DNA from: a virus
Reading direction: 5' to 3' (one strand)
IMG/VR virus record: IMGVR_UViG_3300008450_008027
Coordinates: 1-43,134 of that record
Length of the DNA: 43,134 nucleotides
Shown here: piece by piece, positions 15,075-39,331 of the stretch
How positions within the stretch are numbered: position 1 is the stretch's first letter
Layout of the letters: the number at the start of each line of letters is the position of its first letter
Notes under the pieces: generated by a model
Database searches by the model: none
The model's input: the letters and a program-made list of their open reading frames with translations, nothing else
What the model was told of the DNA's origin: nothing
Translations under genes and position numbers: made by a program

Positions 15075-15408
15075 TCGGACTTTCACGCCAAGGCAGTTTA
15101 GATGCAGACACTTCTACTCTACAATTTAAACACACTGTCTTTAAATTAATACGGTCTGTATTTCGTAAATTACCGTCCAAGTGAAAAACAGTCATTTGTT
15201 TTTCTGGGAATTTTGCCCTATAACCACATTTTTCACAAACAGGTTTTTTCCTGTATCCTGCTTTAAACCAGATAGGTGGGAGAGGCTTAAGTTTTTTTCC
15301 TTTTCTAATACAGCTATCACACATTCGTCTAAAGTGATAGCGCCCTTCTGCGATATAGTTTATAGCAGAAGGGTTTTGATTGCAGGCTAAACAGGTAGGT
15401 CGTTGCAT
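15058..15408 (-). CDS. Zinc-ribbon / HNH-like protein
   Basis: About 116 residues from the ATG at 15408; an upstream in-frame ATG at 15462 gives 134. I prefer 15408 because a late-like GTAAATA ends exactly 5 nt before it, as at other genes here. Four CxxC pairs are visible (CLACN, CDSC, CEKCG, CLNC). The C-terminal part, FHLDGNLRNTDRINLKTVCLNC, has the His-Asn-Asn-Cys spacing of HNH/beta-beta-alpha-metal nucleases. It may be a small HNH endonuclease or a zinc-binding regulator. It runs opposite to its neighbours and overlaps the dNMP kinase tail-to-tail. Confidence 0.7.
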   Translation of the reverse strand: MQRPTCLACNQNPSAINYIAEGRYHFRRMCDSCIRKGKKLKPLPPIWFKAGYRKKPVCEKCGYRAKFPEKQMTVFHLDGNLRNTDRINLKTVCLNCRVEVSASKLPWRESPITPDF

Positions 15409-15413
15409 GTTTG

Positions 15414-15419
15414 TATTTA
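15414..15419 (-). promoter_or_regulatory. Late-like element 5 nt before the ATG of the HNH-like gene
   Basis: On the minus strand it reads GTAAATA, then CAAAC, then ATG at 15408. The spacing puts the predicted start of transcription on the A of the ATG. Confidence 0.5.
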
Positions 15420-15467
15420 CTAAACCTTTGCAAAGGTGAACCAAACTGCCTATATTTTTCATGTTTC

Positions 15468-15475
15468 GATAAATA
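15468..15475 (+). promoter_or_regulatory. Late promoter-like element for the tail sheath
   Basis: GATAAATA lies 29 nt before the sheath ATG. Unlike several other late genes here, it leaves a leader of about 24 nt carrying a GAGG ribosome site (AATGAGGACATGAAAC), fitting a very highly expressed structural gene. Confidence 0.7.
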
Positions 15476-15504
15476 TCTTTAACAGTTTAATGAGGACATG
15501 AAAC

Positions 15505-18500
15505 ATGGCATTAGTTTCTCCAGGCGTACAAGTAACAGTTATAGATGAAAGCAATTATGCACCAGCAGCGTTGGGATCTGTAGCTTACCTTTTGTTAGCA
15601 ACCGCCGAAAATAAAGTTGCACCGGGCGGAACTGCATTTGCAGCAGGTACATTAGCAGAAAATGCAGGCAAAGTATATACTATTACTAGTCAGCGTGATC
15701 TGGTTACTACTTTTGGGACACCAATTTTTAAAACTACAGCAGGTGGTGCACCTATTAACGGTGACGAACAAAACGAATACGGATTGTTGGCAGCATACAG
15801 TGCATTAGGGGTCAGCAATACAATTTATATTCAAAGAGCAGATGTTGATTTGGGCGCCCTTAACGGAACAACTACTCGACCATTGTCTAATCCTTCAGCA
15901 GGTAATTTATGGTTAGATGTTGGATCTAGCAATTGGGGTATTTTTGAGTGGAATGCAAGCACTAATTCGTTTACACAAAAAACTCCGTCGGTTATCACTT
16001 CCACAGAGTATCTTGCCAGTGATAATTTTACACCTAATACAACAGTGGGCACAGTCGGTGATTACATTGTTAATGCATATGACAATGAAAATCCCGTTTT
16101 CTATAAACGATATGATAACACTTGGCAACAAGTGGGTAACGTTGGTTGGCAAACTGGTATCCCAACAGTTACTGGAACACAGACAAATCCGGTGGTATCA
16201 AGTTTAAGTTATATTTTAATCAACGGAACAAACGTTTCTATCACTGGCGGTTCGAATGTAACAACAATTGCAGCACAAATTAATTCTGCAAGTGTTACAG
16301 GTATTCTTGCTCGTGTTTCGAACGGACAGTTAATAATTACAGCGAATTCTGCTGCAACAAATTCTGCAGCAAATATTCAAGCTGGAGTTGGTGGTGGCAA
16401 TGCTATTTCTACTTTAGGTATTACAGCAGGAACGTATCCAGCGGCCGCAACTAGCATAGCTCCATATTTCAGTGTGCCAGTCTGGCAGAGCAATGCTGCT
16501 CCTACTGGAAGTGTGTGGCAAAAAGCCAGTGCTTTGGGCAACGGCGAAAATATGGCTCTTAAAGAGTTTAATAGTTCGACATTGGCTTGGAATCCTTTAA
16601 CAGTTAACAGCTATGCAAATGTATTCGCAGCAACGTTTGGACTAGATCCAACAGGAGGCGGTTCTAATATTATCGAGGGCACTGCATTTAATCAGTACAA
16701 TCCTAATGAAAATGATACACTAGCAAATCAAATTTGGTATCGTAAAAATACTGGGGCAACAATTTTAACTGGAAATACCACTTCTCCTGTGGTACCAGGA
16801 GTAGGTGCAGCATTCACAATTCAAACAAGAGCAAATGCTAGTTTATCTACTGTAACCACTGTTTCAGTGACTGTGTCAACAGGAACAATTAATGGATTAA
16901 TCCAAGCTATTGCCAGTGCTTGCGGAACTGCAGGAGTTACTGACATTGTTGGCGGAGTAGATTCAAGCGGCGCATTTACTATCACTCACCAAAAGGGTGG
17001 AGATATGGTTCTGACAGATGGGGCTCAAACTCCATTGGCCAATGTTGCAATAGTAGCTGGAGCAACCAATGTTTATGCCTCTCCGGCAAATGCCAGCGTG
17101 CTAATTGGCACAAATTGGCAACCATTGAGCAACGAAAATACATATGACAAAGCATATACGGCTGCAATAACACAACCGTATGATGCTCCTGCTAGCGGAA
17201 CATTATGGTATTACAATACACCAAGTCGTGTAGATATCATGGTAAGTAACGGAAGCGCATGGTTGGGATATCAGAATCTAAGCAGCGACATTCGTGGTTA
17301 TAATTTAACACAAACAAATCCAAACGGACCAATTATTTCTACATCGCAGCCCACAAAACAAGACGATAGTACACCATTAGTACTAGGAGATTTATGGTTA
17401 GATTCTAGCGATTTAGAAAACTATCCAAAACTATACAGATATCAAAATGTGTCTGGTATTAATCAGTGGGTGTTAATTGATAACACTGATAGCGTAAGTC
17501 AAAATGGTATTCTATTTGCAGATGCTCGTTGGGCTCCAGATGGTGCTGTTAATACAACTGACCCAGCAACAGGCGCTATCCCAACTATCAAATCGTTGCT
17601 AACAAGCAATCACACTGATTTAGATGCACCAGATCCAGCACTATATCCTAGAGGTACATTGCTATGGAACACCCGTGCAAGCGGATACAATGTTAAGGAA
17701 TATAGACCTAACTACTTTAGTCAGCAAGCATATCCATTAGACTCTGCACAAACAGAAACTGGCGCATGGGTTACAGTAAGCGGTTTTGACGTTACCGGAG
17801 TGCCAAATTTTGGTCGTAAAGCTCCACGTGGTGTAGTTGTTGCTGCATTAAAGTCCAGCATCGACAGCAGTACAGAATTGAGAGAAGACGCAAACCAGTT
17901 TAACTTAATCAGCTGCCCTGGATATCCAGAACTTATTCCTAACATGATTGCGTTGAATGAAGATCGCGATAATACAGCGTTCATCATTGGTGATTCACCA
18001 ATGAGACTGCAAGCCACTGGAACAGCAATCCAAGGATGGGCACAAAATACTAGTGATGTAACCAGCACTGGCGAATACGGTTTAGCCACTGTTAACCCTT
18101 ATGTGGGTGTATATTATCCACAAGGTCAAACAAATGATCTAAGTGGGACCGCAGTGGTTGTACCGTCAAGTCATGCAGTAATTCGTGCAATGATTAAGAG
18201 TGACAATATTAGCTATCCATGGTTAGCGCCTGCTGGAACACGTCGTGGTCTAATTGATAATTTAAACGCAATTGGCTACATTGATCAAGACAGCGGAAGG
18301 TTCATTAGTATTGGTGTAACACAAGGTCTTCGTGATGTTATGTACACTAATAAAATTAATCCGTTGACATTCTTGCCAGGTAATGGTCTACTAATTTACG
18401 GACAAAAGACATTAAGTTCAACTCCTAGTGCATTAGACCGCATTAATGTTGCTAGACTGGTTAACTATCTAAGACAACAATTGAATGTGATCGCAAGGCC

Positions 18501-18789: not shown

Positions 18790-18790
18790 T

Positions 18791-19408
18791 ATGGCAGTTT
18801 CATCGTTAACAAGATTTACAGTACCCTTAGGTGGTAACCAAAGTGCTACCACTCAAGGTTTATTAATGCCAAAATTAAAGTTTCGTTATCGCGTAACTTT
18901 TGAAAAATTTGGTGTAAGCAACCCTAAAACAGAAATGACCAAACAAGTTATGTCATTTGCTCGACCTCAAGTCACTTTCGATCCAGTGGAAATTCCTGTA
19001 TATAACAGTCGTGTGTACATTGCAGGCCGCCCAACTTGGAACGCAGTGGCAACTACTCTCAGAGATGATGCAGGCGGCAATGTAAGTAGACTAGTTGGCG
19101 AACAGTTACAGAAACAATACGATTTTATGGAACAGGCTAGTGCAAGTTCCGGTATTGATTACAAATTTGTAACAACAATAGAAATGTTGGACGGTGCTAA
19201 TGGAACAGTTGAACCCACTGTACTAGAAGCATGGCAATTGTATGGTTGTTTCTTAACAGATGTAAATTATAATGATTTAGATTATGGTAGCAATGACCCA
19301 GTAACTATTACAATGAGTATTCGTTACGATAACGCTATTCAAACAACAGGTGCAGGCGTTGGCTCTCCAGGCCTTACACAGTTTAATACAGCAGCTATCA
19401 CAGGCTAA
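18791..19408 (+). CDS. 19: Tail tube protein (gp19-like)
   Basis: A 205-residue protein starting 1 nt after the sheath stop. The order of elements (FRYRVTFEKFG, EMTKQVMSFARPQVTFDPVEIPVYNSRVYIAGRPTWNAVATTLRDDAGGNVSRLVGEQLQKQYDF, AWQLYGCFLTDVNYNDLDYGSNDPVTITMSIRYDNA) is that of T4-type tail tube subunits, which stack as hexamers to form the channel inside the sheath. T4 gp19 is 163 residues; the extra length is mainly in the central loop and at the C terminus. A strong terminator follows. Confidence 0.92.
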   Translation: MAVSSLTRFTVPLGGNQSATTQGLLMPKLKFRYRVTFEKFGVSNPKTEMTKQVMSFARPQVTFDPVEIPVYNSRVYIAGRPTWNAVATTLRDDAGGNVSRLVGEQLQKQYDFMEQASASSGIDYKFVTTIEMLDGANGTVEPTVLEAWQLYGCFLTDVNYNDLDYGSNDPVTITMSIRYDNAIQTTGAGVGSPGLTQFNTAAITG

Positions 19409-19427
19409 TAGTTTAAACATGTATCTA

Positions 19428-19451
19428 AAGCCCACTTCGGTGGGCTTTTTT
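19428..19451 (+). terminator. Intrinsic terminator after the tail tube gene
   Basis: An 8-bp stem (AAGCCCAC with GTGGGCTT), a TTCG tetraloop and a T-run. It closes the sheath-tube transcript; a late-like element starts 5 nt later for the next gene. Confidence 0.92.
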
Positions 19452-19455
19452 ATTT

Positions 19456-19463
19456 GATAAATA
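19456..19463 (+). promoter_or_regulatory. Late-like element 5 nt before the ATG at 19469
   Basis: GATAAATA, then five T, then ATG. There is no room for a ribosome site, so the late mRNA is predicted to begin at the start codon. Confidence 0.7.
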
Positions 19464-19468
19464 TTTTT

Positions 19469-21919
19469 ATGGCCTCATTATATAATGCCGATCTAAAGCC
19501 TATCCAAGCAGGGCAATCCACTCATCCCTACGATCATGCCACACGACTATTTTTGGCAGATAATTTTAGATTAGCTCCTAAACAGAGTTTTCTTTATTAT
19601 GTAGTAATTAATCTAGATCCAAGTCAGACTCAATTGGGCGGCGGTTTTTTAGGCGCTGCTTTAAGTTTTGCAGATAGATATCAAAGTTTAGAAACTGGGA
19701 TGCTGGTAAAAAGTGTAGACTTGCCCAAGTTTACTGTAGATACAAAAACTTTAAATGCATATAATAGAAAAAATATTATACAGACCAACATTAAGTATGA
19801 TCCAGTAGATATCAAATTTCATGATGATGCAGCAGATGTAATTACAAATTTTTGGAATGATTATTATACATATTACTACAGGGACAGTGATTACTCTACA
19901 ACGGCATACGGCCAACCATACAAGTATCAACCACGAAATAAAATAGGTTGGGGTTTTTCACCGCGAAATAATTCATTGCCAAATTTTCTAAGCAGTATTA
20001 GGATTTTTAGTTTACATAATAAAAGATTCACAGAATACTATTTGGCTAATCCAATTATTACTAATTGGAGGCACGGTGAACACAGAGCAGCTGGAAGTAA
20101 TGATACTTTAGAAAATAGTATGACTGTTGCATATGAAACTGTAAAATATTTTACAGGTTATGTAAATCCAGTAAGTGTTGATGGGTTTAGTTTATTACAT
20201 TACGACAATACTCAGAGTCCAATTTCTACTAGCACTACTAATATATACAGTGATGTAGGAATTTTAGGAGCAATCGATGGTGCTCCAAAAGATCTACGAA
20301 AACCAGATGGCACAGACGGTTCTGGCGGACCAGTGTCTAGTCTTCTATCAATGTATCGTTTATATAATAACGTTAAAAATGTTAATTTAAACAATGTTGT
20401 TGGCTCAGTTGTGGGTAACTATGGTGTTTCCGTAATAAACAATGCATTAAATGGCAGAAGTAATCCATTTAATTTTCCTATCACGCCCGGCGAATCGACA
20501 CAGACAGGCTTTAATAATATTGTTGGCAGCAGCGGCTATAGCGTAGGAACACCCGGCCCGGGAGTGTCTATTGGTGGTGCTCTTACTGGCATTGCCGTTG
20601 GAGCAGCAGTAAATACAACGAATGCGGTATTAGGCACTGTTGCTTCTGCAATTGACAGGGGAATAGTCACCGCAACCGACTCAGTAATATCAGCAGGTAG
20701 TACCGCAGTATTTGATACAGTAAATAATAATGGAACGGTGGTAGTAAATCCTGCAAGTCTTCAAACGGTTACAGGAACAACAACTGCCTCTATAGTTGAT
20801 TCATCGGGTCAAGTGGTAGCACAAATTCAAACCACTGCTACCGCATCTGGGGTATTTAATCCCGATAATTTAACAGAAAATCTAATTTACGGACAAAGAA
20901 CAACGGACCCGTCCGGCCAAGAATATATCAGTAATGTATATAGAGATGGTACTGTAATAAAATATGATGCTGCTACTGGGAACCCTTTGCAATACATTCC
21001 TGGATCTGCTACAGCATCAGTTATTGGTACCCCTGGGCAAGTTGTTCCAATAACACAAGATACACGAACTCTTGCAGCTCGAGGCGTAACACTACCAAGC
21101 AACGGTGTACAATACAGAACAGATCCACAAACAGGTATAGTATATACTGTTGGCGGAACTACCAGCGCAGTAATTACTAACACTATTGCTGGCGCTACTG
21201 GCGCAGTATCTGGACTGTATGCTGGTCAAGCAATTAATCAAGCACTAAGCAATACATTCCTTGGTAAATCTCTTATTGGCAGAACTATTGCTACATCGTT
21301 GTCCACTGTTACAGGAGCTGCGATAGGAAGAGCAGTTAATAATGGTCTTCAGCCTATTATTAATAAAGCGTCGGGTGCAATCGTTCAAGCTTGGGACGAT
21401 TCAGCTGACAAAGTTAAAAATGTAGTTTCTTCATGGACTGGTACCGGTGGATATGATCCGTCTAAACCATTAGATAATATAGTAGGACCTCCGATATCAG
21501 ATGGATTTGGTGGAGTTAAATATACGTATAAAGACGGAACTGTGCGATCTGTAGATGCCGAAGGAGTTCAAGTAGTGGCACCAGGAAATAATGACACTGG
21601 ATTATTGAGTTTCTACAACAGAGCACCTGGCGTAAATTCAGATTCAGCAGCAGCAGGACCTCCATTCGGCGCTGTATGGACTACCACAGATGGTATTCCG
21701 GTTAATTTTGGCGTTATCGGCGGTGCTTTAGCACAGGATAATCCGTATGAAATAACACCAGTCTCGTTGCCAATTTTAGCGGATGACACATCATCAGCAA
21801 ATCAATATTTGGCATTGGCACCTGATGATAGTTTTTATAGTTCTCCAGAAGCTTATCCTAGTTCATACAACAGCGGAATCACTGTTGCAGGATTTGGGTA
21901 CGACGACAATGTCGGATAA
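19469..21919 (+). CDS. Tail-tube-fold structural protein with long C-terminal extension (baseplate/tube initiator candidate)
   Basis: 816 residues from the ATG at 19469; a TTG 15 nt upstream lies in the late promoter itself. Residues ~1-260 have a tube-fold pattern: FLYYVVINLDPS, LVKSVDLPKFTVDTKTLNAYNRKNIIQTNIKYDPVDIKFHDD, FWNDYYTYYYRDSDY, and a final YETVKYFTGYV. Proteins with this domain form the tail tube or its baseplate initiator (gp48/gp54 role in T4). The remaining ~550 residues are Gly/Ala/Thr-rich low-complexity sequence with amphipathic stretches (AVSGLYAGQAINQALSN). It might be a baseplate-hub tube protein or an internal tube component. Position directly after the tail tube fits either. 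Confidence 0.7.
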   Translation: MASLYNADLKPIQAGQSTHPYDHATRLFLADNFRLAPKQSFLYYVVINLDPSQTQLGGGFLGAALSFADRYQSLETGMLVKSVDLPKFTVDTKTLNAYNRKNIIQTNIKYDPVDIKFHDDAADVITNFWNDYYTYYYRDSDYSTTAYGQPYKYQPRNKIGWGFSPRNNSLPNFLSSIRIFSLHNKRFTEYYLANPIITNWRHGEHRAAGSNDTLENSMTVAYETVKYFTGYVNPVSVDGFSLLHYDNTQSPISTSTTNIYSDVGILGAIDGAPKDLRKPDGTDGSGGPVSSLLSMYRLYNNVKNVNLNNVVGSVVGNYGVSVINNALNGRSNPFNFPITPGESTQTGFNNIVGSSGYSVGTPGPGVSIGGALTGIAVGAAVNTTNAVLGTVASAIDRGIVTATDSVISAGSTAVFDTVNNNGTVVVNPASLQTVTGTTTASIVDSSGQVVAQIQTTATASGVFNPDNLTENLIYGQRTTDPSGQEYISNVYRDGTVIKYDAATGNPLQYIPGSATASVIGTPGQVVPITQDTRTLAARGVTLPSNGVQYRTDPQTGIVYTVGGTTSAVITNTIAGATGAVSGLYAGQAINQALSNTFLGKSLIGRTIATSLSTVTGAAIGRAVNNGLQPIINKASGAIVQAWDDSADKVKNVVSSWTGTGGYDPSKPLDNIVGPPISDGFGGVKYTYKDGTVRSVDAEGVQVVAPGNNDTGLLSFYNRAPGVNSDSAAAGPPFGAVWTTTDGIPVNFGVIGGALAQDNPYEITPVSLPILADDTSSANQYLALAPDDSFYSSPEAYPSSYNSGITVAGFGYDDNVG

Positions 21920-21925
21920 TTAAAT

Positions 21926-22309: not shown

Positions 22310-22740
22310 GCAAGTATAGTCAGGGTAAGTATACAATAAAAAATCCTGAAAAATATATAGGAAAACGAGATCCAACTTATAGGTCTAGTTGGGAATTTGC
22401 TTTTATGAATTTTTGTGATAGTAACCCTGCAGTGGTGCAATGGGCCAGTGAAGCAATTCATGTAAATTACAGAAATCCTTTTACAAATAAAAATACAATT
22501 TATGTTCCTGATTTTTTAATCATTTATGTTGATAAAAACGGCAAACGTCACGGTGAAGTAATTGAAGTAAAGCCTACAAAAGAAACCACAATGGAAGCAG
22601 CCAGGAGCGTAAGGGACAAAGCAGCAGTGGCTCTTAACATGTACAAATGGGAAGCTGCAAGAAAATTTTGTGCAGCACAAGGTCTCACTTTTAGAGTTGT
22701 CAACGAAACTGATATTTTTGCTGGTACCAAAAAGCGGTAA
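22306..22740 (+). CDS. 4: Head completion protein (gp4-like)
   Basis: A 144-residue protein with the gp4 pattern: KNPEKYIGKRDPTYRSSWEFAFMNFCDSNPAVVQWASEAIHVNYRNP, then YVPDFLIIY and HGEVIEVKPTKE. The PDF...EVKP arrangement is that of PD-(D/E)XK/TnsA-type nuclease folds. In T4, gp4 (alias 50/65) is needed to finish the DNA-filled head before neck attachment. Length is close to T4 gp4. Its start overlaps the preceding stop, and its own TAA stop is the first half of the late element that serves the next gene. Confidence 0.88.
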   Translation: MSKYSQGKYTIKNPEKYIGKRDPTYRSSWEFAFMNFCDSNPAVVQWASEAIHVNYRNPFTNKNTIYVPDFLIIYVDKNGKRHGEVIEVKPTKETTMEAARSVRDKAAVALNMYKWEAARKFCAAQGLTFRVVNETDIFAGTKKR

Positions 22741-22743
22741 ATA
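22738..22743 (+). promoter_or_regulatory. Late-like element overlapping the gp4 stop
   Basis: TAAATA (GGTAAATA in context), then CCGTT, then ATG at 22749. The gp4 stop codon is part of the element. The 5-nt spacing again predicts a transcript starting at the ATG. Confidence 0.6.
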
Positions 22744-22748
22744 CCGTT

Positions 22749-23243
22749 ATGACGAAGAAACTTGAAGACCTTTTTAATTTGCCTGAAAAACTGCCAGACG
22801 ATGCAACACCCGAACAAGCCACCGCAGCACTAGAAGAACAAAAATCTGTGTTTGCAGACATAGACAATGCCATAGACAAAATCGATCAAGCCTTGCCTAA
22901 AGTAAAAGGCCTTGATGCCAGCGATCGAGAAATGGATGAACTGGCTGACTTAGCTAAAAATCGTTTCAATGATCTAATGGATTTGGGGATGAACATGGAA
23001 GCCAGATTCAGTGGGCAAGTATTTCAAACAGCCGGAGTACTGTTGGGTCATGCAATCACAGCCAAACAAGCCAAGTTAGATAAAAAATTGAGAATGGTGG
23101 ATCTACAGTTAAAGAAAATGAGATTAGATCATCAACTTAAACAAGACGGCGCTGGTGTAGGTAATGATGCCATTGACGGGCAAGGGGTAGTGTTAGATAG
23201 AAATGCATTATTAGCACAAATACTAAACAAACCCAAGCAATAA
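22749..23243 (+). CDS. Candidate small terminase subunit (gp16-like)
   Basis: A 164-residue protein, the same length as T4 gp16. It has an acidic N terminus, then long helices (NAIDKIDQALPKVKGLDASDREMDELADLAKNRF; NMEARFSGQVFQTAGVLLGHAITAKQAKLDKKLRMVDLQLKKMRLDHQL) and a flexible C terminus ending VVLDRNALLAQILNKPKQ. The central helical pair is what forms the ring in gp16, which regulates the large terminase and recognises DNA. Sequence identity is too low to be certain from eye. It lies between gp4 and head-type genes and appears to be made from a leaderless late mRNA. Confidence 0.65.
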   Translation: MTKKLEDLFNLPEKLPDDATPEQATAALEEQKSVFADIDNAIDKIDQALPKVKGLDASDREMDELADLAKNRFNDLMDLGMNMEARFSGQVFQTAGVLLGHAITAKQAKLDKKLRMVDLQLKKMRLDHQLKQDGAGVGNDAIDGQGVVLDRNALLAQILNKPKQ

Positions 23244-23255
23244 TTACCAGATTTT

Positions 23256-23263
23256 AATAAATA
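23256..23263 (+). promoter_or_regulatory. Late promoter-like element for the MKPFKAYLTE gene
   Basis: AATAAATA, 19 nt before the ATG at 23283, leaving room for a TTAGGA ribosome site. It lies just after the small-terminase candidate stop. Confidence 0.65.
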
Positions 23264-23282
23264 TCGTATATTAGGAATGAAT

Positions 23283-23906
23283 ATGAAACCATTTAAAGCC
23301 TATCTAACTGAAAGTCATAGAACATATGATTTTAGAATTAGATTAGCCTGCGAGCTACCAGGCGATCTAATCTCTAAAATTAAAACTGTTTTAGAAGCTT
23401 ACAAATTAGATTCTATTAGTAAACCAAAACGATTACCAATTCAAGAAACTCCAGAGTTTCCTAATATGGGACCTGTTGAAGTTAGTGTAATGGAAATTTC
23501 TTTGAACTACCCATGCAATGACGAACAAGTTAGAACATTGATTGCAGAGCGAGCAGGAATTAATCTAGCTTGTATTAAAGTTAATCCTACAAATAGCCCG
23601 TATGAAGCTGCACTGCAGGGATTAGAACAGAGTAATAAATCTTCACAGCCTGGTGAATCTGTGTTATTACAGCCTGACATGGTGGCTGAAAAAGTAGAAT
23701 CAGATTTGGTAGGAAATGCAAGAATCCCTAATTTAATTAAAGAGTTAGAAGAAACTCGCAAGTACGAGTACCCTGAAGCTGCTGGAAGCAAATCGCCCGC
23801 AGCAAAAACAACAAACGAGTTGCCGCAAGGAAGCGCAAGTCCAATCGGCACACATAAAAACAAAATAATTAACCCACGTGGTATGAAAGCAGGAAACGGA
23901 AAATGA
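23283..23906 (+). CDS. Conserved head-type protein with MKxFKxYLTE start
   Basis: 207 residues from the ATG at 23283; the TTAGGA ribosome site is 6 nt before this ATG but abuts the alternative ATG at 23277. The N terminus MKPFKAYLTES resembles the short propeptide of T4 internal head proteins (MKTYQEFIAE), with a possible prohead-protease site after the Glu (LTE/S). An alpha-beta domain follows (RTYDFRIRLACELP, VEVSVMEISLNYPC), then a Pro/Gln-rich tail. The function is unknown; related proteins are common in aquatic T4-like phages. Its stop overlaps the next start. Confidence 0.75.
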   Translation: MKPFKAYLTESHRTYDFRIRLACELPGDLISKIKTVLEAYKLDSISKPKRLPIQETPEFPNMGPVEVSVMEISLNYPCNDEQVRTLIAERAGINLACIKVNPTNSPYEAALQGLEQSNKSSQPGESVLLQPDMVAEKVESDLVGNARIPNLIKELEETRKYEYPEAAGSKSPAAKTTNELPQGSASPIGTHKNKIINPRGMKAGNGK

Positions 23907-27153: not shown

Positions 27154-27156
27154 TAT

Positions 27157-27768: not shown

Positions 27769-27776
27769 GATAAATA
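27769..27776 (+). promoter_or_regulatory. Late-like element 5 nt before the GIY-YIG ATG
   Basis: GATAAATA, then AGTAT, then ATG at 27782. The exact 5-nt spacing and lack of ribosome site match the other predicted leaderless late genes. Confidence 0.65.
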
Positions 27777-27781
27777 AGTAT

Positions 27782-28411
27782 ATGAATACTTATTATGTCT
27801 ACGCCTATTTAAGAAAAGATGGCACTCCGTATTATATTGGTAAGGGTACAGGAGACCGCGCATTTACTAAAAGCAGGGGAGAAATAGGTAAACCGACAAA
27901 AGATAGAATAATTATCGTCGAATCGAATTTGACTAATGTTGGTGCATTGGCTTTAGAGCGCAGACTTATTAAGTGGTACGGTAGAAAAGATTTAGGTACC
28001 GGTATTTTACGCAATCAAACAGACGGTGGTGACGGTGTTGTCGGTTATGTTTATACACCAGAGCAAAAAGAGATAAAGTCTAAACGATTGAAAGGGATAA
28101 AGAAAAAGCCACTTTCGGAAAGTACTAAGCAAAAATTAAGAGATATTAATTTGGGAAAACATTTAGCACCATTTACACCAGAGCATAAACAAAAAATTTC
28201 AAAAGCACTAAAAGGTAAGGCACGAAGTGCTGCCCACAGTGAAAAATTGTCAGCTGCCCTTAAAGGCAGGACTCCTGCCAATGAAGAACGAGTAAACTAT
28301 TTGAAAGCAATGGAGGCAGGAAAGACAGAATGCGAATACTGCGGTAAAGTTACCATTTTAGGAAACTACCGCAGATGGCATGGTAATAATTGTCGTTACA
28401 AAACTATCTAA
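27782..28411 (+). CDS. GIY-YIG homing-type endonuclease with NUMOD3 repeats
   Basis: 209 residues from the ATG at 27782; a GTG five codons upstream lies in the promoter element. The N-terminal [24 protein letters not shown] is a GIY-YIG catalytic module with the later [10 protein letters not shown] and NQTDGGDG. Residues ~95-175 hold NUMOD3-type DNA-binding repeats ([29 protein letters not shown] and similar). The end has a CEYCGKV...HGNNC zinc finger. It is a seg/mob-type mobile endonuclease that would cut related phage genomes. It overlaps the convergent HNH gene by 4 nt. Confidence 0.92.
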
Positions 28412-28955: not shown

Positions 28956-28963
28956 AATAAATA
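28956..28963 (+). promoter_or_regulatory. Late promoter-like element before the large terminase
   Basis: CAATAAATA followed by CTATT and then ATG TAA at 28969. The usual leaderless spacing is present, but the ATG is followed immediately by a stop. The terminase ATG is 33 nt further on and has no clear ribosome site. Confidence 0.6.
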
Positions 28964-29001
28964 CTATTATGTAATATTTACTTATTTAGAGCAACCGAAA
29001 T

Positions 29002-30567
29002 ATGGCAAAACCTTTAGAAAATGTGCTGATAAAAAAGCCAAATATGCAGGAAAGCTACACTGAACAACAACTTCGAGAAGTTATTAACTGTGCAGATCCT
29101 GTAACAGGTCCGCAATATTTTCTTGACAATTATTTTTACATCCAGCATCCCACCAGAGGGCGTATGCTCTATCAGCCTTTCGAATATCAACGTAGGTTAG
29201 TAAACACTTACCATAATTATAGATACAGTATAAGTCTCATGCCTCGCCAAACAGGAAAGTCTACTACGGCTGCGGGCTATCTGCTTTGGTATGCAATGTT
29301 TGTGCCTGACAGTACAATTTTGGTGGCAGCACACAAATACACCGGATCCCAGGAAATTATGCAGCGTATTCGTTATGCATATGAAAGTGTACCTGATTTT
29401 ATTCGCGCTGGTGTTACTAGTTATAATAAAGGCAGTATAGATTTTGATAATGGATCTCGCATAGTCAGCGCCACTACTACAGAAAATACCGGTCGTGGTA
29501 TGTCTATATCATTGTTATACTGCGACGAGTTTGCATTCGTTCGGCCAACTATTGCCAGTGAGTTTTGGACTTCTATTAGTCCTACGTTAGCAACTGGTGG
29601 TAAGTGTATTATCACAAGCACACCCAACAGCGATGAAGACCAATTTGCACAGATTTGGAGACAAGCAAACAAGTGCATCGACGAATACGGTAACGAAACT
29701 GAATTAGGTGTTAACGGGTTCAGATCGTACAGAAGCAAATGGCAAGAACACCCTGATAGAGACGATGTATGGGCCACTGAAATGCGGGCTCAACTGGGAG
29801 AAGAACGTTTTCGTAGAGAAATGGAATGTGAATTCATTATATATGATGAGACACTAATTAATCCTATTTTTCTAACAGAAATGGCCGGCATTGATCCTTT
29901 GATAAAACAAGGTCAAGTACGTTGGTATAAAAAGCCCGAGCAAGGAAACGTGTATATTGTTGCACTAGACCCTAGTTTAGGCACAGGTGGTGACCCAGCA
30001 GCAATTCAAGTACTAGAGCTACCTAGTATGAAACAGATAGCAGAGTGGCAACATAATAAAACGCCAGTTCAAACCCAAATTAAAATTTTATCTGAAATTA
30101 CAAAAACTTTAGTTGAATCTACAAAATCTAACAATGATGTTTATTACAGTGTTGAAAACAATACCTTAGGTGAAGCTGCTTTGGTGGCTATAAGTGAATT
30201 TGGCGAAGAAAATATTAAAGGTATGTTTTTAAGTGAGCCCAAAAAACAAGGATCTAATAGAGTGTACCGAAAAGGTTTTACTACTACTAACAAATCAAAA
30301 TTATCTGCTTGTGCTAAATTAAAAAATTTAATCGAAACCAGAAAATTACATGTTGCCAGTAAAGCCCTGGTCAGCGAATTGAAAACTTTTATTGCATCTG
30401 GCAGTGGGTATGCCGCGAAACTTGGGGAAACAGATGATTTGGTTATGTCGTTGATTCTTGCTGTTAGAATGGCAGTGTTCTTAAGAGAATTCGACCCGAA
30501 CTTGGACGAAAAACTAAAAGATGACAGGGACGACATAATAATGCCAATGCCCTTCATAATGATTTGA
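29002..30567 (+). CDS. 17: Large terminase subunit (gp17-like)
   Basis: 521 residues. The ATPase domain has Walker A SLMPRQTGKST (80-88), Walker B LLYCDEF (171-177) and the coupling motif ITSTPNS (~206-211). The nuclease domain has IVALDPSLGTGGDPAA (D323 as first metal ligand), YSVENNTLGE and DDLVMSLILAV. It packages DNA into proheads and cuts concatemers. Length is somewhat below T4 gp17 (610), lacking part of the N-terminal region. The start context AACCGAAATATGG lacks a Shine-Dalgarno; a late element with an abortive ATG-stop lies upstream. Confidence 0.96.
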   Translation: MAKPLENVLIKKPNMQESYTEQQLREVINCADPVTGPQYFLDNYFYIQHPTRGRMLYQPFEYQRRLVNTYHNYRYSISLMPRQTGKSTTAAGYLLWYAMFVPDSTILVAAHKYTGSQEIMQRIRYAYESVPDFIRAGVTSYNKGSIDFDNGSRIVSATTTENTGRGMSISLLYCDEFAFVRPTIASEFWTSISPTLATGGKCIITSTPNSDEDQFAQIWRQANKCIDEYGNETELGVNGFRSYRSKWQEHPDRDDVWATEMRAQLGEERFRREMECEFIIYDETLINPIFLTEMAGIDPLIKQGQVRWYKKPEQGNVYIVALDPSLGTGGDPAAIQVLELPSMKQIAEWQHNKTPVQTQIKILSEITKTLVESTKSNNDVYYSVENNTLGEAALVAISEFGEENIKGMFLSEPKKQGSNRVYRKGFTTTNKSKLSACAKLKNLIETRKLHVASKALVSELKTFIASGSGYAAKLGETDDLVMSLILAVRMAVFLREFDPNLDEKLKDDRDDIIMPMPFIMI

Positions 30568-30578: not shown

Positions 30579-30586
30579 CATAAATA
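30579..30586 (+). promoter_or_regulatory. Late-like element 7 nt before the ATG at 30594
   Basis: CATAAATA, then TAATACC, then ATG. Spacing is 2 nt longer than at the other predicted leaderless genes; the transcript would carry about two bases before the ATG. Confidence 0.6.
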
Positions 30587-30593
30587 TAATACC

Positions 30594-32060
30594 ATGATTG
30601 AAATTGATAAAGTAGCTGAAAATTTATTTGACAAGATTCGCAGCCGATTTGACTCTGTTAACATCGGAGACGAAAACGCCAAAGCCACGCTGGACCCTTC
30701 CTTGGCCAGATTTTTTAATTTCGATTATATCAGAGATGGCAAAGAGTTTGGAAACATAACAATCAGTCTAGTAGATGACAACAATCTCAAAGTTTATTTT
30801 GATAAAGAGATTGATAAAGGCATGACTCCAGAAGAAAAAAAAGTATGGTATGCTTTTTTAAAAAATTTAAGACTTTTTGCTAAAAGAAATTTATTAACTT
30901 TTGACATTAGGGATATTGCCAAAAGCGGATTAAATTTGCGAGATCTTAAACATGCTAATAAAAATGCAGAAGTATTGAACAAAGACGATATCCGTGTAAC
31001 AGAAAGTAAACAATACGGAACAAGTCGCAGCAGCTATGAACTTTACGACAATGTAAAAATTATAGCCAGACACAGCAAGCCAATTGTAGACGAAACTCTT
31101 CCCGGTGCAAGAAGCCGAAATATACAGGCATTCTACATCGAGAATTCCTTGGGTGAACGATTCAGACTGCCCGAAGGCACTACATTTAATGGCGCAAGAG
31201 CATATGCTCGTCACGTAAAAAACAATGGTGCAATACACGACGATTTTGGACAACATATAACTAAAATTATTAAAGAAATGTCGTCTTTGAAATTGTTTGT
31301 TCGAAATATGCGGGGCAGGACCTTCGAAGACATCGAGACGTCTCAAATGGTAGAAAGTGCCATTGATCATTATGGTAAATTGCATCGAGACTTATTTACT
31401 ATACGAGGTCAGCGCGGGTATGAACAATATAAATCATTGTGGCAACCAGAAGTAATGGATGAAGACCAATTCGATATCGACGAACTTCGTGAACGATTTG
31501 TTCGCAAAGTATTTGATGATAGATTAATGGATGCACTGCCTGTGGTTCGACGAGCGTATATGCAAAGAAAAAATGCAGTGTCGGATGAATTCGAATCGTG
31601 GGCCAACGGTATAATTGAAAATATCGGTAATACTATAGACGATCAAAATAAAAAACATGCCAGCTTAAAATTGGATGTGGAAGAAGACGCAGAAGATGGC
31701 AACGGCAACACAGACAGTCCATTTGCAAACAGCTTAACTTCAGCTGACTCGGATGGCAATGTAATAGACGGCGACGCAGAGGACGAACAACTAGTTCAAC
31801 TTTTTCAAGAGCATGGATTCGAATTTAGATTCAGTGACGGAGTGTATTATTTTGAAAGTCGAGAAGAACTAGAGCGAGCTAAAGATATTATAGCAGCATG
31901 GGATCCACATTTTGAATTCCCTCGTATGGGAGTTTATGAATATGGGTACGGCAGCTACGGAAGTACCACTGCTGATAGAGAAATTGGTAGCTACAGCAAT
32001 GGTGTAATGGAAGAACTAGAAACCAATCTTCTCAAACAGTTAGCTGGTATTACCAAATAA
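30594..32060 (+). CDS. Unknown 488-residue protein after terminase
   Basis: Not recognised. The portal (gp20) would be expected near gp17, but this protein lacks portal hallmarks. It begins IDKVAENLFDKIRSRFDSVNIG and has an alpha-beta N-terminal half. Helical segments follow (MVESAIDHYGKLHRDLFTIRGQRGYEQYKSLW, ELRERFVRKVFDDRLMDALPVVRRAYMQRKN). A strongly acidic linker (~residues 360-400) leads to a C-terminal domain with GFEFRFSDGVYYFESREELERAKDI, ending MEELETNLLKQLAGITK. Similar proteins are carried by aquatic T4-like phages with no assigned role. Probably late-expressed. Confidence 0.75.
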   Translation: MIEIDKVAENLFDKIRSRFDSVNIGDENAKATLDPSLARFFNFDYIRDGKEFGNITISLVDDNNLKVYFDKEIDKGMTPEEKKVWYAFLKNLRLFAKRNLLTFDIRDIAKSGLNLRDLKHANKNAEVLNKDDIRVTESKQYGTSRSSYELYDNVKIIARHSKPIVDETLPGARSRNIQAFYIENSLGERFRLPEGTTFNGARAYARHVKNNGAIHDDFGQHITKIIKEMSSLKLFVRNMRGRTFEDIETSQMVESAIDHYGKLHRDLFTIRGQRGYEQYKSLWQPEVMDEDQFDIDELRERFVRKVFDDRLMDALPVVRRAYMQRKNAVSDEFESWANGIIENIGNTIDDQNKKHASLKLDVEEDAEDGNGNTDSPFANSLTSADSDGNVIDGDAEDEQLVQLFQEHGFEFRFSDGVYYFESREELERAKDIIAAWDPHFEFPRMGVYEYGYGSYGSTTADREIGSYSNGVMEELETNLLKQLAGITK

Positions 32061-32171: not shown

Positions 32172-32216
32172 ATCTAAGCACAACAAAGACCATCTTAAAT
32201 TACATAGGAGAACATT

Positions 32217-34024: not shown

Positions 34025-34026
34025 TT

Positions 34027-35315: not shown

Positions 35316-36458
35316 ATGAATAACTATTGTTCTCAGAAATTTTGGTGGTTGACTGTTGACTTAGAAAAACAAACTACCGCGAGTTGCTGTACTGCAACTG
35401 AAGAACAAATTGATAAAAACTGGATTAAAGATAACCCAGGAAAACTATTTAATACCCCGTCGCTGATCCGTGATAGGGAATTATTTCTAGAGGACAAAAG
35501 AGTACCCAATTGTGATGTTTGCTGGAAGGCAGAAGATGCTGGCATTACAAGCCGCCGGCTAAGTTTGGAATCAAATTTAAAAACTCACACAGATTTATAC
35601 TCGACTCCGTCGGTGTTACATTTTATTGTAAGTTCCGACTGTAATCTTACTTGTTCTTATTGTTCTAAACAATTTAGTAGCTCTTGGGCACAGGACATCG
35701 TAAAAAATGGTAGTTATAACGTATCATCAGATGTTAATAGGTATCAGATGACTACCCGAGATCGGGTAATTTTTAAAATGAGTCAGAAAGAATTAGAAAA
35801 TGCTCCTACCAGATCGTTACTATTAAACGAGGTAACATTATTAAATTATGATAAAATTATTATTACGGGCGGAGAACCTTTTTTATATTTAAATCTATTT
35901 AATTTAATTAAAAATCTAAATGCCACTACGACCATAGAAATATGGACAGGGTTAGGTGTTAATTCAAAACGACTATCGTCGGAAATAGAAAAAATTAAAT
36001 CGATCCCAAATGTTTGTATAGTTATTAGTGCAGAAAATATAAATGAGTTATATGAATTTAATAGATTTGGACACACATACCATCAATTTTGTAAAAATTT
36101 AGAAATTCTTAAAGAGTCAAGCATACCATTAAAGTTTAATGCAACTATGAGCAATACTACAATTTTTGGATTAGCTGATTTTATAGAAAATTATCAAGAT
36201 TATGATATAAGTTTTCAGTTGTGCTTGCACCCAACGTTTTTATCTCCCAATGTGTTAGACAGTGAAAGTAAACATCGTGTGTTGGAGTCGTTGTCGATTT
36301 ATAAAGAAAGACTTAAATCGTTATTCGAAACTGTGCCTCAAGATTATACAATAGATCAAAAAATAGAACTAACAAATTTTATTAAAGAGTTTGCAAAGAG
36401 AAGAAATTTATCATTGGATATATTTCCAAAATCTTTTATTAAATGGATTAACGAGTAA
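35316..36458 (+). CDS. Radical SAM protein (twitch/SPASM-like)
   Basis: A 380-residue protein. SSDCNLTCSYC at residues 106-116 gives the CX3CX2C that holds the 4Fe-4S cluster (C109, C113, C116). IIITGGEPF (GGEP at 185-188) binds S-adenosylmethionine. Before the barrel, SCC (~23-25) and NCDVCWKAEDAG (66-69) match the N-terminal cysteine pattern of the 'twitch domain-containing radical SAM' group and may bind a second cluster. The reaction is unknown; relatives modify peptides or small molecules. It is very AT-rich and sits between uvsX and uvsY, suggesting insertion. Its stop overlaps the next ATG. Confidence 0.9.
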   Translation: MNNYCSQKFWWLTVDLEKQTTASCCTATEEQIDKNWIKDNPGKLFNTPSLIRDRELFLEDKRVPNCDVCWKAEDAGITSRRLSLESNLKTHTDLYSTPSVLHFIVSSDCNLTCSYCSKQFSSSWAQDIVKNGSYNVSSDVNRYQMTTRDRVIFKMSQKELENAPTRSLLLNEVTLLNYDKIIITGGEPFLYLNLFNLIKNLNATTTIEIWTGLGVNSKRLSSEIEKIKSIPNVCIVISAENINELYEFNRFGHTYHQFCKNLEILKESSIPLKFNATMSNTTIFGLADFIENYQDYDISFQLCLHPTFLSPNVLDSESKHRVLESLSIYKERLKSLFETVPQDYTIDQKIELTNFIKEFAKRRNLSLDIFPKSFIKWINE

Positions 36459-36910
36459 TGTGGTATAATCAAGTTGTTCAGGATCTGGGTAATATACCTG
36501 CGTTCATAATTTACTATGAAAATGAATTAGCAGATGCTAAGTTTGATTGCACTATCAAAGGTCATTTAGAAAAAAATATTGCATCCTTGCCGGGTATAAC
36601 CGAACTTCGTTTTAATCAGTTACAAGAGATTGAAGCCATTCTTAATTATTTAAATATTCAGTTGCGTAAGATACGTAAACGGCATTTTCAAAAATATTTA
36701 GAAAATTATCCTCGAGCACTAACGAGCAGGGATGCTGAAAAGTATGTTGATGGTGAAGATGAAGTAATTGACTTTGAAACAATAATTAACGAAGTTGCCT
36801 TAGTCCGTAATAAATGGCTAGGACTTATGAAAGGCTTGGAAAGTAAAAACTTTATGATAGGCCATGTAAGTAGACTCAGAACTGCGGGCATGGAAGACAT
36901 TACTTTATAA
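36458..36910 (+). CDS. uvsY: UvsY-like recombination mediator
   Basis: A 150-residue, mostly helical protein. The C-terminal part (INEVALVRNKWLGLMKGLESKNFMIGHVSRLRTAGMED) parallels the end of T4 UvsY, including the R-G/K-N-F-x-I-xH pattern. The middle is basic (LNIQLRKIRKRHFQKYL), as in the UvsY DNA-binding region. UvsY (137 residues in T4) loads UvsX onto gp32-covered ssDNA. Operon position with gp32 and uvsX supports the call. A radical SAM gene separates it from uvsX; its ATG lies in that gene's stop. Confidence 0.75.
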   Translation: MWYNQVVQDLGNIPAFIIYYENELADAKFDCTIKGHLEKNIASLPGITELRFNQLQEIEAILNYLNIQLRKIRKRHFQKYLENYPRALTSRDAEKYVDGEDEVIDFETIINEVALVRNKWLGLMKGLESKNFMIGHVSRLRTAGMEDITL

Positions 36911-36918
36911 GTAGTTGT

Positions 36919-37680
36919 ATGAAAATTGTACTAGTAACAGGTGGATTCGACCCCATACATTCAGGGCACATTGCCTATTTTAACGCAGCCAAACAGTTAG
37001 GAGATATTCTAATTGTTGGCGTTAACAGCGACAAATGGTTAGAACGCAAAAAAAGCAGGGCATTTATGCCATGGCATGAACGTGCTACAATCATCGATAA
37101 TCTTAAAATGGTGGATTTTGTCTACGAATTTTACGATGATGACGGATCTAGTATAGATGCAATTAAGAGAGTTAGGGAAGCATATCCCGATGCAAAAATC
37201 ATTTTTGCTAATGGGGGCGATCGTACTAAAGATAATATACCAGAGATGGCTTTCGAAGATGCCAATTTGGAATTTGTTTTTGGTATCGGGGGTGAAGATA
37301 AACGTAATTCGTCTAGTTGGATATTAGAAGAATGGAAGGCACCTAAGACATCTCGCGCATGGGGGTATTACCGGATTCTGCACACTTGCGGCCCAGGAGT
37401 AAAACTTAAAGAACTCACTGTGGCACCTAAGACTTGTTTAAGTATGCAACGTCACGAAAAACGTGCAGAATTTTGGTTTGTGGCTGAAGGGCAAGCAGCA
37501 GTATATACATTGGATTCAAGCACAGATCATGATTTAAAATGTAGTTTAGTGGCCCATCAAAGTACATTTATTGATACCAATGAATGGCATATGCTATGCA
37601 ACGAAACAGATCAGCCATTAAAGCTTATTGAAATTCAATACGGCGAAAATTGTATTGAAGAAGACATCGAAAGAAAATAA
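36919..37680 (+). CDS. Cytidylyltransferase-like / cupin fusion
   Basis: A 253-residue two-domain protein. Residues 1-~135 are a nucleotidyltransferase with GGFDPIHSGHI (the HxGH motif), VNSDKWLERKK and FANGGDRTKDN, as in HldE/RfaE-C or glycerol-3-phosphate cytidylyltransferases. Residues ~150-250 form a cupin like the C-terminal domain of mannose-6-phosphate isomerase/ManC (LSMQRHEKRAEFWFVAEGQAAV, FIDTNEWHML). Such a fusion would activate a sugar or polyol phosphate and may also isomerise it. It belongs to the same (+) run as uvsY but functionally to the glycan block. Confidence 0.85.
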   Translation: MKIVLVTGGFDPIHSGHIAYFNAAKQLGDILIVGVNSDKWLERKKSRAFMPWHERATIIDNLKMVDFVYEFYDDDGSSIDAIKRVREAYPDAKIIFANGGDRTKDNIPEMAFEDANLEFVFGIGGEDKRNSSSWILEEWKAPKTSRAWGYYRILHTCGPGVKLKELTVAPKTCLSMQRHEKRAEFWFVAEGQAAVYTLDSSTDHDLKCSLVAHQSTFIDTNEWHMLCNETDQPLKLIEIQYGENCIEEDIERK

Positions 37681-37681
37681 A

Positions 37682-37759
37682 TTACCTTTTAGGTAGTCTT
37701 CCGTAATTTACCCAATCCCAATCTTCATCGGTCATTGGGATCCAATTAGTAGTATCCAT
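37682..37759 (-). CDS. Tiny protein, third of three coupled minus-strand genes
   Basis: 25 residues, Trp-rich (MDTTNWIPMTDEDWDWVNYG), ending GRLPKR. It has a GCGAGG ribosome site 5 nt before the ATG and overlaps the 3' end of the preceding gene by 14 nt. The good ribosome site and overlap make it credible despite its size; function unknown. Confidence 0.5.
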   Translation of the reverse strand: MDTTNWIPMTDEDWDWVNYGRLPKR

Positions 37760-37850
37760 TGTAGCCTCGCTTGATTGCATTTTTCCTGCTTTCAGCAATC
37801 ACTTCAGCCCAATCTACTAAAAAATTCCAGATTTTGATTGTAATTTTCAT
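37746..37850 (-). CDS. Tiny protein, second of three coupled minus-strand genes
   Basis: 34 residues, beginning MKITIKIWNFLVDWAEVIAESRK and ending KRGYNGYY. The start of translation is marked by CTAGGAGAAATTTTAT before the ATG, and the ATG overlaps the upstream stop (ATGA). It could form one amphipathic helix that binds membrane or a partner; function unknown. Confidence 0.6.
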   Translation of the reverse strand: MKITIKIWNFLVDWAEVIAESRKNAIKRGYNGYY

Positions 37851-38005
37851 ATAAAATTTCTCCTAGCAGTTTGATAGTTATAGTGCCTAATCCAAAGTTC
37901 TATTTCGGCTGCACTTTTAGGTTGTTTACTTAAAATATAAGATTCTACGTTGTCTTGGTAAGACGTTTCTTTAAAAAGACTTTTGATCCATTTTAAAAAG
38001 TTCAT
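37847..38005 (-). CDS. Small DUF3563-like protein
   Basis: 52 residues, MNFLKWIKSLFKETSYQDNV, then ESYILSKQPKSAAEIELWIRHYNYQTARRNFI. The pattern of a basic/aromatic N-terminal helix followed by YI..K.P..AA.IE.WIR.Y matches DUF3563-type small proteins found in proteobacteria and their phages; the function is unknown. AAAGGAACAAA before the ATG is a clear ribosome site. It is the first gene of a three-gene minus-strand operon, with a late-like element upstream. Confidence 0.7.
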   Translation of the reverse strand: MNFLKWIKSLFKETSYQDNVESYILSKQPKSAAEIELWIRHYNYQTARRNFI

Positions 38006-38050
38006 TTTGTTCCTTTATCAGTGTTTCTACTATTAGTGTTTCTACTAGTA

Positions 38051-38057
38051 TTTATGT
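38051..38057 (-). promoter_or_regulatory. Late-like element for the small minus-strand operon
   Basis: On the minus strand ACATAAATACTAG, about 45 nt before the ATG at 38005. It is the only promoter-like signal seen for the three small genes. Confidence 0.5.
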
Positions 38058-38096
38058 TGCGTTGCAATATCTAAACCGATATTAAAATTTCTAATA

Positions 38097-38102
38097 AATA
38101 CA
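38097..38102 (+). promoter_or_regulatory. Variant late element 5 nt before the ATG at 38108
   Basis: TAAACA (one base from TAAATA), then CTACT, then ATG. The spacing equals that of the other predicted leaderless genes, which is the main reason to list it. Confidence 0.4.
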
Positions 38103-38107
38103 CTACT

Positions 38108-39331
38108 ATGACTAACGATATTCGTAAATTTATTAATATAGTGGAAGAAGATCCGGAAAAATTACGTTCTGCAATCTCCAAACGGGTTGAAAAAATACCA
38201 GATGAACAAGACTTAACGGATATTTTAAAATTTACCAACAAGTACGGTATCAAAAAAGATGTAGAAAAATTTACAACATTGCGTAATTATAAAGGCATTG
38301 TTAGTAATGTTTTCTTAGAAGCATTAGCCAATGCAAATTTAACCGATGCTGAAATTAAAAAGTTTTTAAAAAAGCTGAGTACAGACGGAATATTAGACGA
38401 ACGGAAATTATTAACTCCACGTAAATTGCATAGCTATGCAGAATTGATAGACAGTGAATATAGAAAAACTTTTGATGCTATCAAAGTTGATATTTTTGAA
38501 AAAATTTCTGGAAAAATAGGCGAAAAAGGCGATGTGGGTAAAGGCGAATATATGTTAGACATTATTAGCCCGGGAGTAAATCGTCGTGGGGCTCCGGGGG
38601 ATTTGGATATTGATGGGACTAAAATTGAATTAAAAGCCGGCCAAAACGGAAGACTTGGTCCAGCCGGCAGTCAAGCATTGGTGGGACGTTTTTCCAGAGA
38701 ATATGCACCTATAATAAAACAGATTGACCCCGAAGCAGAGATTCCAACGGATAATAGCCAAATTGCAGAAATTTTTAATCCTAAATTAAACATGTCGGCA
38801 TTTAGTGCTTTTTTTGGCAATGACAGCAAAAAAGTAAAGCTAGCACTAAAAGCAATGTTGGAAATGCATTACCCTAGTGTAAATGTCAATTCAATGGTTA
38901 ATAAAATTGTTGGACCAAACGGTGTCATTAATGGCACAGAATTAAAAAAACAAATGCTTAACACTAGTTTTGACGTATATAAAGCTGATAAAGATTTTGA
39001 CGGTATTATAATTATGGATAGTGCAGTCACTGGATTTTTATATGTGAATAGTGGCGATGATGTTGCTGCAATATCTGACCAACTTGGTGTGAGCTTTCCA
39101 AGTTGGACAGACACACAGGGTAACTGTATGAAAGTTACATTAAGTGCAGGAGCACTTAAGGCTGCAGGACAAGCAGCAGGCATTCTACCAACAGCCAAAT
39201 CAAAACAATCGAAAGTCAGAGATCCGTCATCAGTGGCAGTTGCTACACACGGAGTGACCGGACTTAAACCAACTCGGTCAAAACCGGCTCCCGCCGCACC
39301 TACAATATCTGCACCACGTGCTCGCAGATAA
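38108..39331 (+). CDS. PD-(D/E)XK-like nuclease-fold protein of unknown role
   Basis: A 407-residue protein. Residues 161-184 read GAPGDLDIDGTKIELKAGQ and onward to GRLG, with D165/D167, E174 and K176 spaced like the PD-(D/E)XK catalytic core, and an upstream GKGEYML that could supply the helix Glu. The N terminus (MTNDIRKFINIVEEDPEK) resembles the short leaders of internal head proteins. The C terminus is a flexible, basic Pro/Ala tail. It may be a packaged or late nuclease. No ribosome site is seen before the ATG. Confidence 0.7.
   Translation: MTNDIRKFINIVEEDPEKLRSAISKRVEKIPDEQDLTDILKFTNKYGIKKDVEKFTTLRNYKGIVSNVFLEALANANLTDAEIKKFLKKLSTDGILDERKLLTPRKLHSYAELIDSEYRKTFDAIKVDIFEKISGKIGEKGDVGKGEYMLDIISPGVNRRGAPGDLDIDGTKIELKAGQNGRLGPAGSQALVGRFSREYAPIIKQIDPEAEIPTDNSQIAEIFNPKLNMSAFSAFFGNDSKKVKLALKAMLEMHYPSVNVNSMVNKIVGPNGVINGTELKKQMLNTSFDVYKADKDFDGIIIMDSAVTGFLYVNSGDDVAAISDQLGVSFPSWTDTQGNCMKVTLSAGALKAAGQAAGILPTAKSKQSKVRDPSSVAVATHGVTGLKPTRSKPAPAAPTISAPRARR

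Follow-up and report, generated by a model that had tools for sequence, protein, structure and literature searches.

The DNA analysed here is the IMG/VR virus record IMGVR_UViG_3300008450_008027, taken at its full length of 43,134 bases (the window, in whose numbering all positions are given), which on sequence grounds is a genome fragment from a jumbo myovirus of the T4 type. The nearest counterparts of its tail sheath are in Atu_ph07, Phosso and PA5oct (~40-48% identity), and those of its terminase in PA5oct-type phages (57% identity). The elements in question are copies of TAAATA, the core of T4 late promoters, that stand before genes of the window at two kinds of distance (Table 1). The gap is the number of nucleotides (nt) between TAAATA and the start codon; gaps of 4-8 define a short class, and gaps of 18-24 a long class.

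Gene starts next to TAAATA in the window

The arrangement TAAATA-N5-ATG occurs five times in the window, on both strands, where shuffles lead one to expect 1.31 and one shuffle in 100 reaches five, an excess that for the window alone is only suggestive. Four of the five are gene starts, at 15408 (minus strand), 19469, 22749 and 27782. An earlier note on this DNA (the original prediction) had given exactly 5 nt for these four starts and 7 nt for the start at 30594, and had seen no Shine-Dalgarno (SD) sequence at the short-spacing starts; direct reading confirmed all three statements. It had also placed a variant, TAAACA, 5 nt before the ATG at 38108. No such variant is present there, and the start is preceded by a perfect TAAATA (38095-38100) at a spacing of 7.

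At the tail-tube gene TAAATA-N5-ATG is kept in 35 of 35 IMG/VR relatives, down to 39% identity, and in nearly all of these a hairpin with a T-run lies directly before the TAAATA, as it does in the window. Since such a terminator should end incoming transcripts, the tube gene is most simply read from its own TAAATA promoter. In the family of the 22749 gene, 36 of 41 members have a gap of 4-8 and none has a gap of 18-24. The virion structural gene at 30594 belongs to a family with gaps of 4-8 in 55 of 62 members (33 at gap 5 and 13 at gap 7) and of 18-24 in seven. Gaps of 4 or 7 are found in six of eight members of the 38108 family, and gaps of 4 or 5 in nine of the 12 members of the HNH family of the minus-strand gene, for which reason 15408 is favoured over the upstream ATG at 15462 as its true start.

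Table 1. Promoter elements, starts and terminators in the window, with their positions
Feature	Positions	Strand	Basis
TAAATA-N5-ATG, tail-tube-like gene 19469-21919	19458..19471	+	sequence; PHROG tail tube matches
Intrinsic terminator hairpin and T-run just 5' of the 19458 promoter	19427..19451	+	fold -15.2 kcal/mol, z -2.96
TAAATA-N5-ATG, gene 22749-23243 (phrog_16202, unknown function)	22738..22751	+	sequence, alignments
TAAATA-N5-ATG, HNH-like gene 15058-15408	15406..15419	-	sequence, alignments
TAAATA-N5-ATG, NUMOD3/homing-endonuclease-like gene 27782-28411	27771..27784	+	Pfam NUMOD3, PHROG homing endonuclease; few orthologues
TAAATA-N7-ATG, virion structural gene 30594-32060	30581..30596	+	sequence, family gaps
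TAAATA-N7-ATG, gene 38108-39331 (no family match)	38095..38110	+	sequence, alignments
TAAATA-N5-ATG-TAA in the 38-nt gap before terminase ATG 29002	28958..29004	+	start-stop pair
Sigma70 promoter TTGACA-N17-TATAAT-N6-ATG, open reading frame 11770-12054	11735..11772	+	sequence
Leadered late promoter: TAAATA, gap 19, SD ATTAGGA, ATG 23283	23258..23285	+	alignments
Leadered late promoter: TAAATA, gap 29, SD GAGGA, ATG 15505 (tail sheath gp18)	15470..15507	+	sequence
Leadered late promoter: TAAATA, gap 20, ATG 11700	11698..11726	-	alignments
Leadered late promoter, TAAATA (13254-13259) in loop of 12-bp terminator hairpin, ATG 13279	13242..13281	+	fold -20.8 kcal/mol, z -6.9

The TAAATA-N5-ATG ahead of the terminase gene was considered as a leaderless gene and rejected: the codon directly after its ATG is TAA, and the ATG is unconserved beyond close relatives. 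If the terminase mRNA begins where predicted, the start-stop pair (28958-28973) lies at its 5' end.

Spacing and Shine-Dalgarno content in relatives

Viral contigs were scanned with the tube protein and the terminase, which yielded 115 related loci, and a scan with the PA5oct terminase added more. The pooled gap set comprises the related loci and four large relatives; its rows are not phylogenetically independent, and counts of protein families are the safer measure. Open reading frames (ORFs) of the clade were called mechanically, and for the histogram without start selection every in-frame ATG near an ORF start was counted.

The pooled gaps are bimodal, with 219 at 4-8, 16 at 9-17 and 153 at 18-24. 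The individual gaps from 4 to 8 hold 40, 105, 19, 40 and 15 starts, and those from 18 to 24 hold 25, 34, 25, 30, 13, 15 and 11. A histogram made without start selection gives 33, 97, 15, 37 and 14 at gaps 4-8, is near empty at 9-17, and gives 20, 35, 19 and 23 at gaps 18-21. Counted by protein family, 62 families have a member at gap 4-8 and 68 at 18-24, and 14 have one in the valley. In one relative of 354 kb (G001) taken by itself, 28 starts have TAAATA at gaps 4-8, and gaps 9-13 are empty. Control hexamers of similar composition give no peak like that of TAAATA; the overlapping ATAAAT and AAATAT follow its pattern. The original prediction had proposed the TAAATA-to-start distance in related genomes as a check, and had held that an equal rate of TAAATA-N5-ATG at random in-frame ATGs would speak against it. 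That distance forms a narrow peak at 5 nt, and among 10,808 internal in-frame ATGs four have TAAATA at gaps 4-8, two of them at gap 5. The relatives settle that the spacing peak is real.

The two classes also differ in SD content. The mean anti-SD duplex energy of the short class is -1.03 kcal/mol (shuffled, -0.92) and that of the 18-24 class -4.38 kcal/mol (shuffled, -1.77), with a Mann-Whitney p of ~2e-36 for rows that are not phylogenetically independent. Nine families hold both classes, and most of these show a stronger SD among their long members than among their short ones (Wilcoxon p 0.02), the terminase family and one HNH family departing from this pattern. The 30594 family has an SD energy of -0.49 in its 55 short members and -3.94 in its seven long ones. 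The bimodal gaps and the opposite SD content bear out the two classes of late gene proposed originally, and membership of one or the other goes mostly with the gene, switches being occasional. Terminators precede 20% of genes with the motif at gaps 4-6, 18% of those with it at 18-24 and 3% of those without it.

Start sites, late sigma factor and competing explanations

With the six bases of the core fixed by the search, the bases preceding TAAATA are mostly G then A, which makes an octamer like GATAAATA, and the short and long classes share this context. Upstream of the two adjoining bases the composition is nearly flat, with no conserved -35 element. The T4 octamer TATAAATA is found once in the window against 5.2 expected; the element here is (G)ATAAATA. 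T4-like phages differ among themselves at -13/-12 of the late promoter (PMC1524935).

The late and the sigma70 promoters of the clade can each be compared with a start-site rule. The sigma70 -10 hexamer ends at -7, so that six bases lie before +1. In T4 the late promoter octamer occupies -13 to -6 (PMC1524935); as it ends at -6, a spacing of N5 would make the A of the ATG +1, and the original prediction to this effect is thereby supported. The sigma70 promoter at 11735 abuts the ATG at 11770 as had been described, with a spacing of 6, and the arrangement is kept in L014 and L018. Clade promoters of the form TTGACA-N16-18-TATAAT peak at gap 6, with 4, 12 and 2 at gaps 5, 6 and 7 and one at 8-12, and their SD energy is -0.36 kcal/mol in the short class as against -5.32 kcal/mol for longer leaders. 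If the A of the ATG is +1 for both, the two peaks should lie one base apart, as they do at 5 for TAAATA and 6 for sigma70. The strongest argument for tying the spacing to the 5' end of the RNA is that two different elements each keep to their own start-site rule. If the leader is the gap minus 5, it would measure -1 to 3 nt in 219 cases, 4-12 nt in 16 and 13-25 nt in 194.

A protein of the gp55 family (phrog_234, ~300 residues) is encoded in four of the seven longest relatives searched (G001, G003, G005 and G007), and gp55 matches are also found in PA5oct, Phosso, Atu_ph07, CBB, P-SSM2 and T4.

The best explanation of these observations, which we regard as highly probable, is a lineage-wide use of leaderless late mRNAs (leaders of 0-3 nt) from gp55-type promoters, beside a class with minimal SD leaders. 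The TAAATA elements would be late promoters with the core (G)ATAAATA, served by a gp55 sigma system of the T4 type and lying 4-8 nt (mostly 5) 5' of the start codon, and host RNA polymerase with the phage late sigma would begin the mRNA at the A of the AUG or at most ~3 nt before it. A set of late genes, among them the tail-tube gene and a virion structural gene, would in this way be given leaderless mRNAs, on which initiation would proceed by recognition of the 5'-AUG instead of SD pairing. In other late genes this element would leave a minimal leader, ~13-20 nt long and carrying an SD, and the sigma70 promoters of the clade would do likewise, their spacing shifted one base in keeping with their own start-site rule.

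Several points weigh against this explanation. The positions, spacings, SD contrast, conservation, distribution and the gp55 of relatives are observed; the RNA 5' ends are predicted, and we infer that the elements are active promoters, that gp55 uses them and that ribosomes begin at these ATGs without an SD. The gp55 gene is placed in relatives, and its assignment to the window, a fragment, would be by way of them. The co-activator gp33 (phrog_254) was not found in the clade, and the sliding clamp gp45 (PF02916, phrog_223) was unmatched there, a weak test given that PF02916 also failed to pick up the gp45 encoded by P-SSM2. The motif is not kept by every orthologue, being absent in 5 of 41 and in 3 of 12. 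The SD contrast of the short class is partly built in, because an SD cannot fit inside the TAAATA element. Finally, starts at gaps 7-8 may have leaders of 2-3 nt and so not give a strictly leaderless mRNA.

The arrangement might instead mirror the habits of a host in which leaderless genes are widespread, as in Thermus, with no phage-specific programme, a possibility that we consider doubtful. Deinococcus-Thermus bacteria have many leaderless genes whose -10 element adjoins the ORF (PMC12340547), the Thermus phage phiYS40 has leaderless middle and late mRNAs (PMC3594737), and the sigma70-type promoters of the clade would be leaderless too. However, other genes of the same phages carry strong SD leaders, and the alphaproteobacterial phages Phosso and Atu_ph07 are without the trait in the regions examined.

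It is unlikely that transcription in most genes starts 1-5 nt before the ATG, with ribosomes taking a short-leader initiation route. Such starts would suit the 55 of 219 short-class cases at gaps 7-8, where the pattern TACT-ATG offers an A at -3 as a plausible +1, and the T4 start site may itself shift by a base or two. Yet the modal gap of 5, read by the T4 rule (PMC1524935), would put +1 exactly at the A of the ATG, with T at -1 in 88%, and the sigma70 peak at 6 agrees with +1 at the A.

A more elaborate proposal holds that the clade runs leaderless and minimal-SD programmes for its late and sigma70 genes and, late in infection, shifts the host ribosome towards leaderless mRNAs, perhaps by means of a phage bS21; we think this rather improbable. 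Genes for bS21 are present in two large relatives, G001 (L134) and G002 (L133), and PA5oct has one annotated, but a link of phage bS21 to leaderless translation is speculation. To bS21 of gammaproteobacteria and other proteobacteria the identity of the G002 protein reaches ~60%, a weak hint of the host. Searches for a multisubunit RNA polymerase (PF00623) and for IF3 (PF00707) gave no match in seven relatives and PA5oct.

Very improbable, in our judgement, is that TAAATA is not a promoter but belongs to the 5' untranslated region of longer transcripts begun further upstream, where it acts as an A/U-rich translation-initiation element, the genes being leadered and SD-independent. The hexamer would sit at a suitable place for an unstructured ribosome standby site, and SD-less, A-rich start regions do occur in some bacteria. 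Against this, the identical TAAATA with the same G/A context recurs at gaps 18-24 before genes with an SD, a terminator lies directly 5' of the tube-gene TAAATA in almost every one of the 35 relatives, genes with the motif more often have a terminator before them than genes without it, and TATAAT promoters with a -35 box behave alike, one base further away. Chance or annotation artefact, with TAAATA of AT-rich intergenic DNA falling near ATGs and start codons picked to fit, has a negligible probability and is already refuted by the relatives: the excess in the window alone is modest (5 against 1.3), but the peak is present without any start selection, internal ATGs give two gap-5 matches, and other phages under a similar ORF caller give no peak.

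Distribution, known systems and leadered promoters

When the loci are placed on a terminase tree, nearly all whose terminase is at least ~55% identical to that of the window have the short class (TAAGTA being also accepted). Short-gap starts were absent from 50-kb structural regions of T4, P-SSM2, CBB, Phosso and Atu_ph07 and from the part of Syn9 examined; the SCTP-2 region examined has one. In the 150 kb examined of cultivated PA5oct there are two gap-5 starts, and the product of one of these, EST35_0222 (start at 144985), is annotated as seen by mass spectrometry. The other TAAATA-N5-ATG start of PA5oct lies at L333 25253 (minus strand), and its product opens MKIKEIILENK.

The elements resemble T4 late promoters in their TAAATA core, in having no -35 element, in standing before structural genes on either strand and in the gp55-family sigma of relatives. 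They differ in that G/A and not TA precedes the core and that gp33 and gp45 were undetected in the clade. Many of them also lie directly at the ATG; in the T4 late region examined the gaps peak at 27-28, and none is of 4-8.

The phage phiYS40 infects Thermus and belongs to another phage lineage. Most middle and late mRNAs of this lytic phage are without a leader (PMC3594737), so that the original prediction of a systematic leaderless class foreign to T4 stands as regards T4 itself, whose late region lacks short gaps, but such a class is not unprecedented in phages. Unlike phiYS40, compared here by description only, the clade uses a T4-type late promoter and has leaderless and SD-leadered late genes side by side. 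Single leaderless mRNAs have long been known in phages lambda and P2 (PMC4633059). In phiKZ, late promoters have a TATG motif (T-3 A T G+1) that overlaps the point where late transcripts begin (PMC7598289); the G of this motif is +1, TATG is not described as a start codon, and the phage has its own multisubunit RNA polymerase, whereas PF00623 was not found in the clade relatives tested.

Bacterial leaderless genes have a -10 element at a fixed short distance from the ATG and no SD (PMC4633059, PMC12340547), and promoters abutting ORFs are described for Deinococcus-Thermus (PMC12340547). Mapped 5' ends of Lactococcus cremoris give bimodal leaders with none of 4-14 nt (PMC10986495), a hole much like that of 4-12 nt implied for the clade. 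The bacterial cases (Deinococcus-Thermus, L. cremoris and mycobacteria) are cellular and depend on housekeeping sigma, whereas those of the clade would depend on a viral late sigma and concern structural genes.

No report of leaderless late genes in T4-like phages was found in the open-access literature searched. Leaderless phage mRNAs being already known, what appears to be new here is that, throughout a large clade of uncultivated phages, a gp55-type late promoter would serve them next to genes with SD leaders. Most work on leaderless translation in bacteria has used a handful of Escherichia coli mRNAs, mycobacteria or Thermus. The clade would provide a large natural system for such translation and a natural experiment on the leader lengths that the ribosome tolerates, in which orthologous genes for virion proteins, in some cases proteins that should be needed in bulk, appear to switch between the leaderless and the SD-leadered state while skipping leaders of 4-12 nt. 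The spacing also offers a rule, readable from sequence, by which start codons can be corrected and late genes recognised in these widespread, uncultivated jumbo phages.

Among the leadered late promoters of the window, the original prediction had singled out those of gp18 (ATG 15505) and of the 23283 gene as having longer spacing and a ribosome site, and both were found as described. Members of the 23283 family have gaps of 18-24 in 35 of 40 cases, mostly with an AGGA-type SD, and gaps of 19-21 are found in eight of nine members of the minus-strand 11700 family. The gene at 13279 has gaps of 19-21 in eight of eight relatives, most of which keep the hairpin with TAAATA in its loop; L033 keeps a hairpin before its homologue, with a different stem sequence. 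The AGGA that serves as SD for the ATG at 13279 comes from the 3' arm of the hairpin. A new transcript would carry this arm only, leaving the AGGA free, and a read-through transcript would hide it. A reading of the TAAATA at 13254 as a terminator loop alone was rejected, as the relatives show a conserved leadered late promoter too.

The products of the genes at 23283, 26098 and 27157 open with similar peptides (MKPFKAYLTES, MKIRDVIVEN and MKIKDIILED), which are reminiscent of the capsid-targeting peptides of T4 internal head proteins. Towards the right end of the window lie 14 tRNA genes, and copies of TAAATA at 40793 and 40978, which may be there by chance or may be promoters for the tRNA array, stand 6 and 9 nt ahead of tRNA-Asn (40805) and tRNA-Gly (40993).

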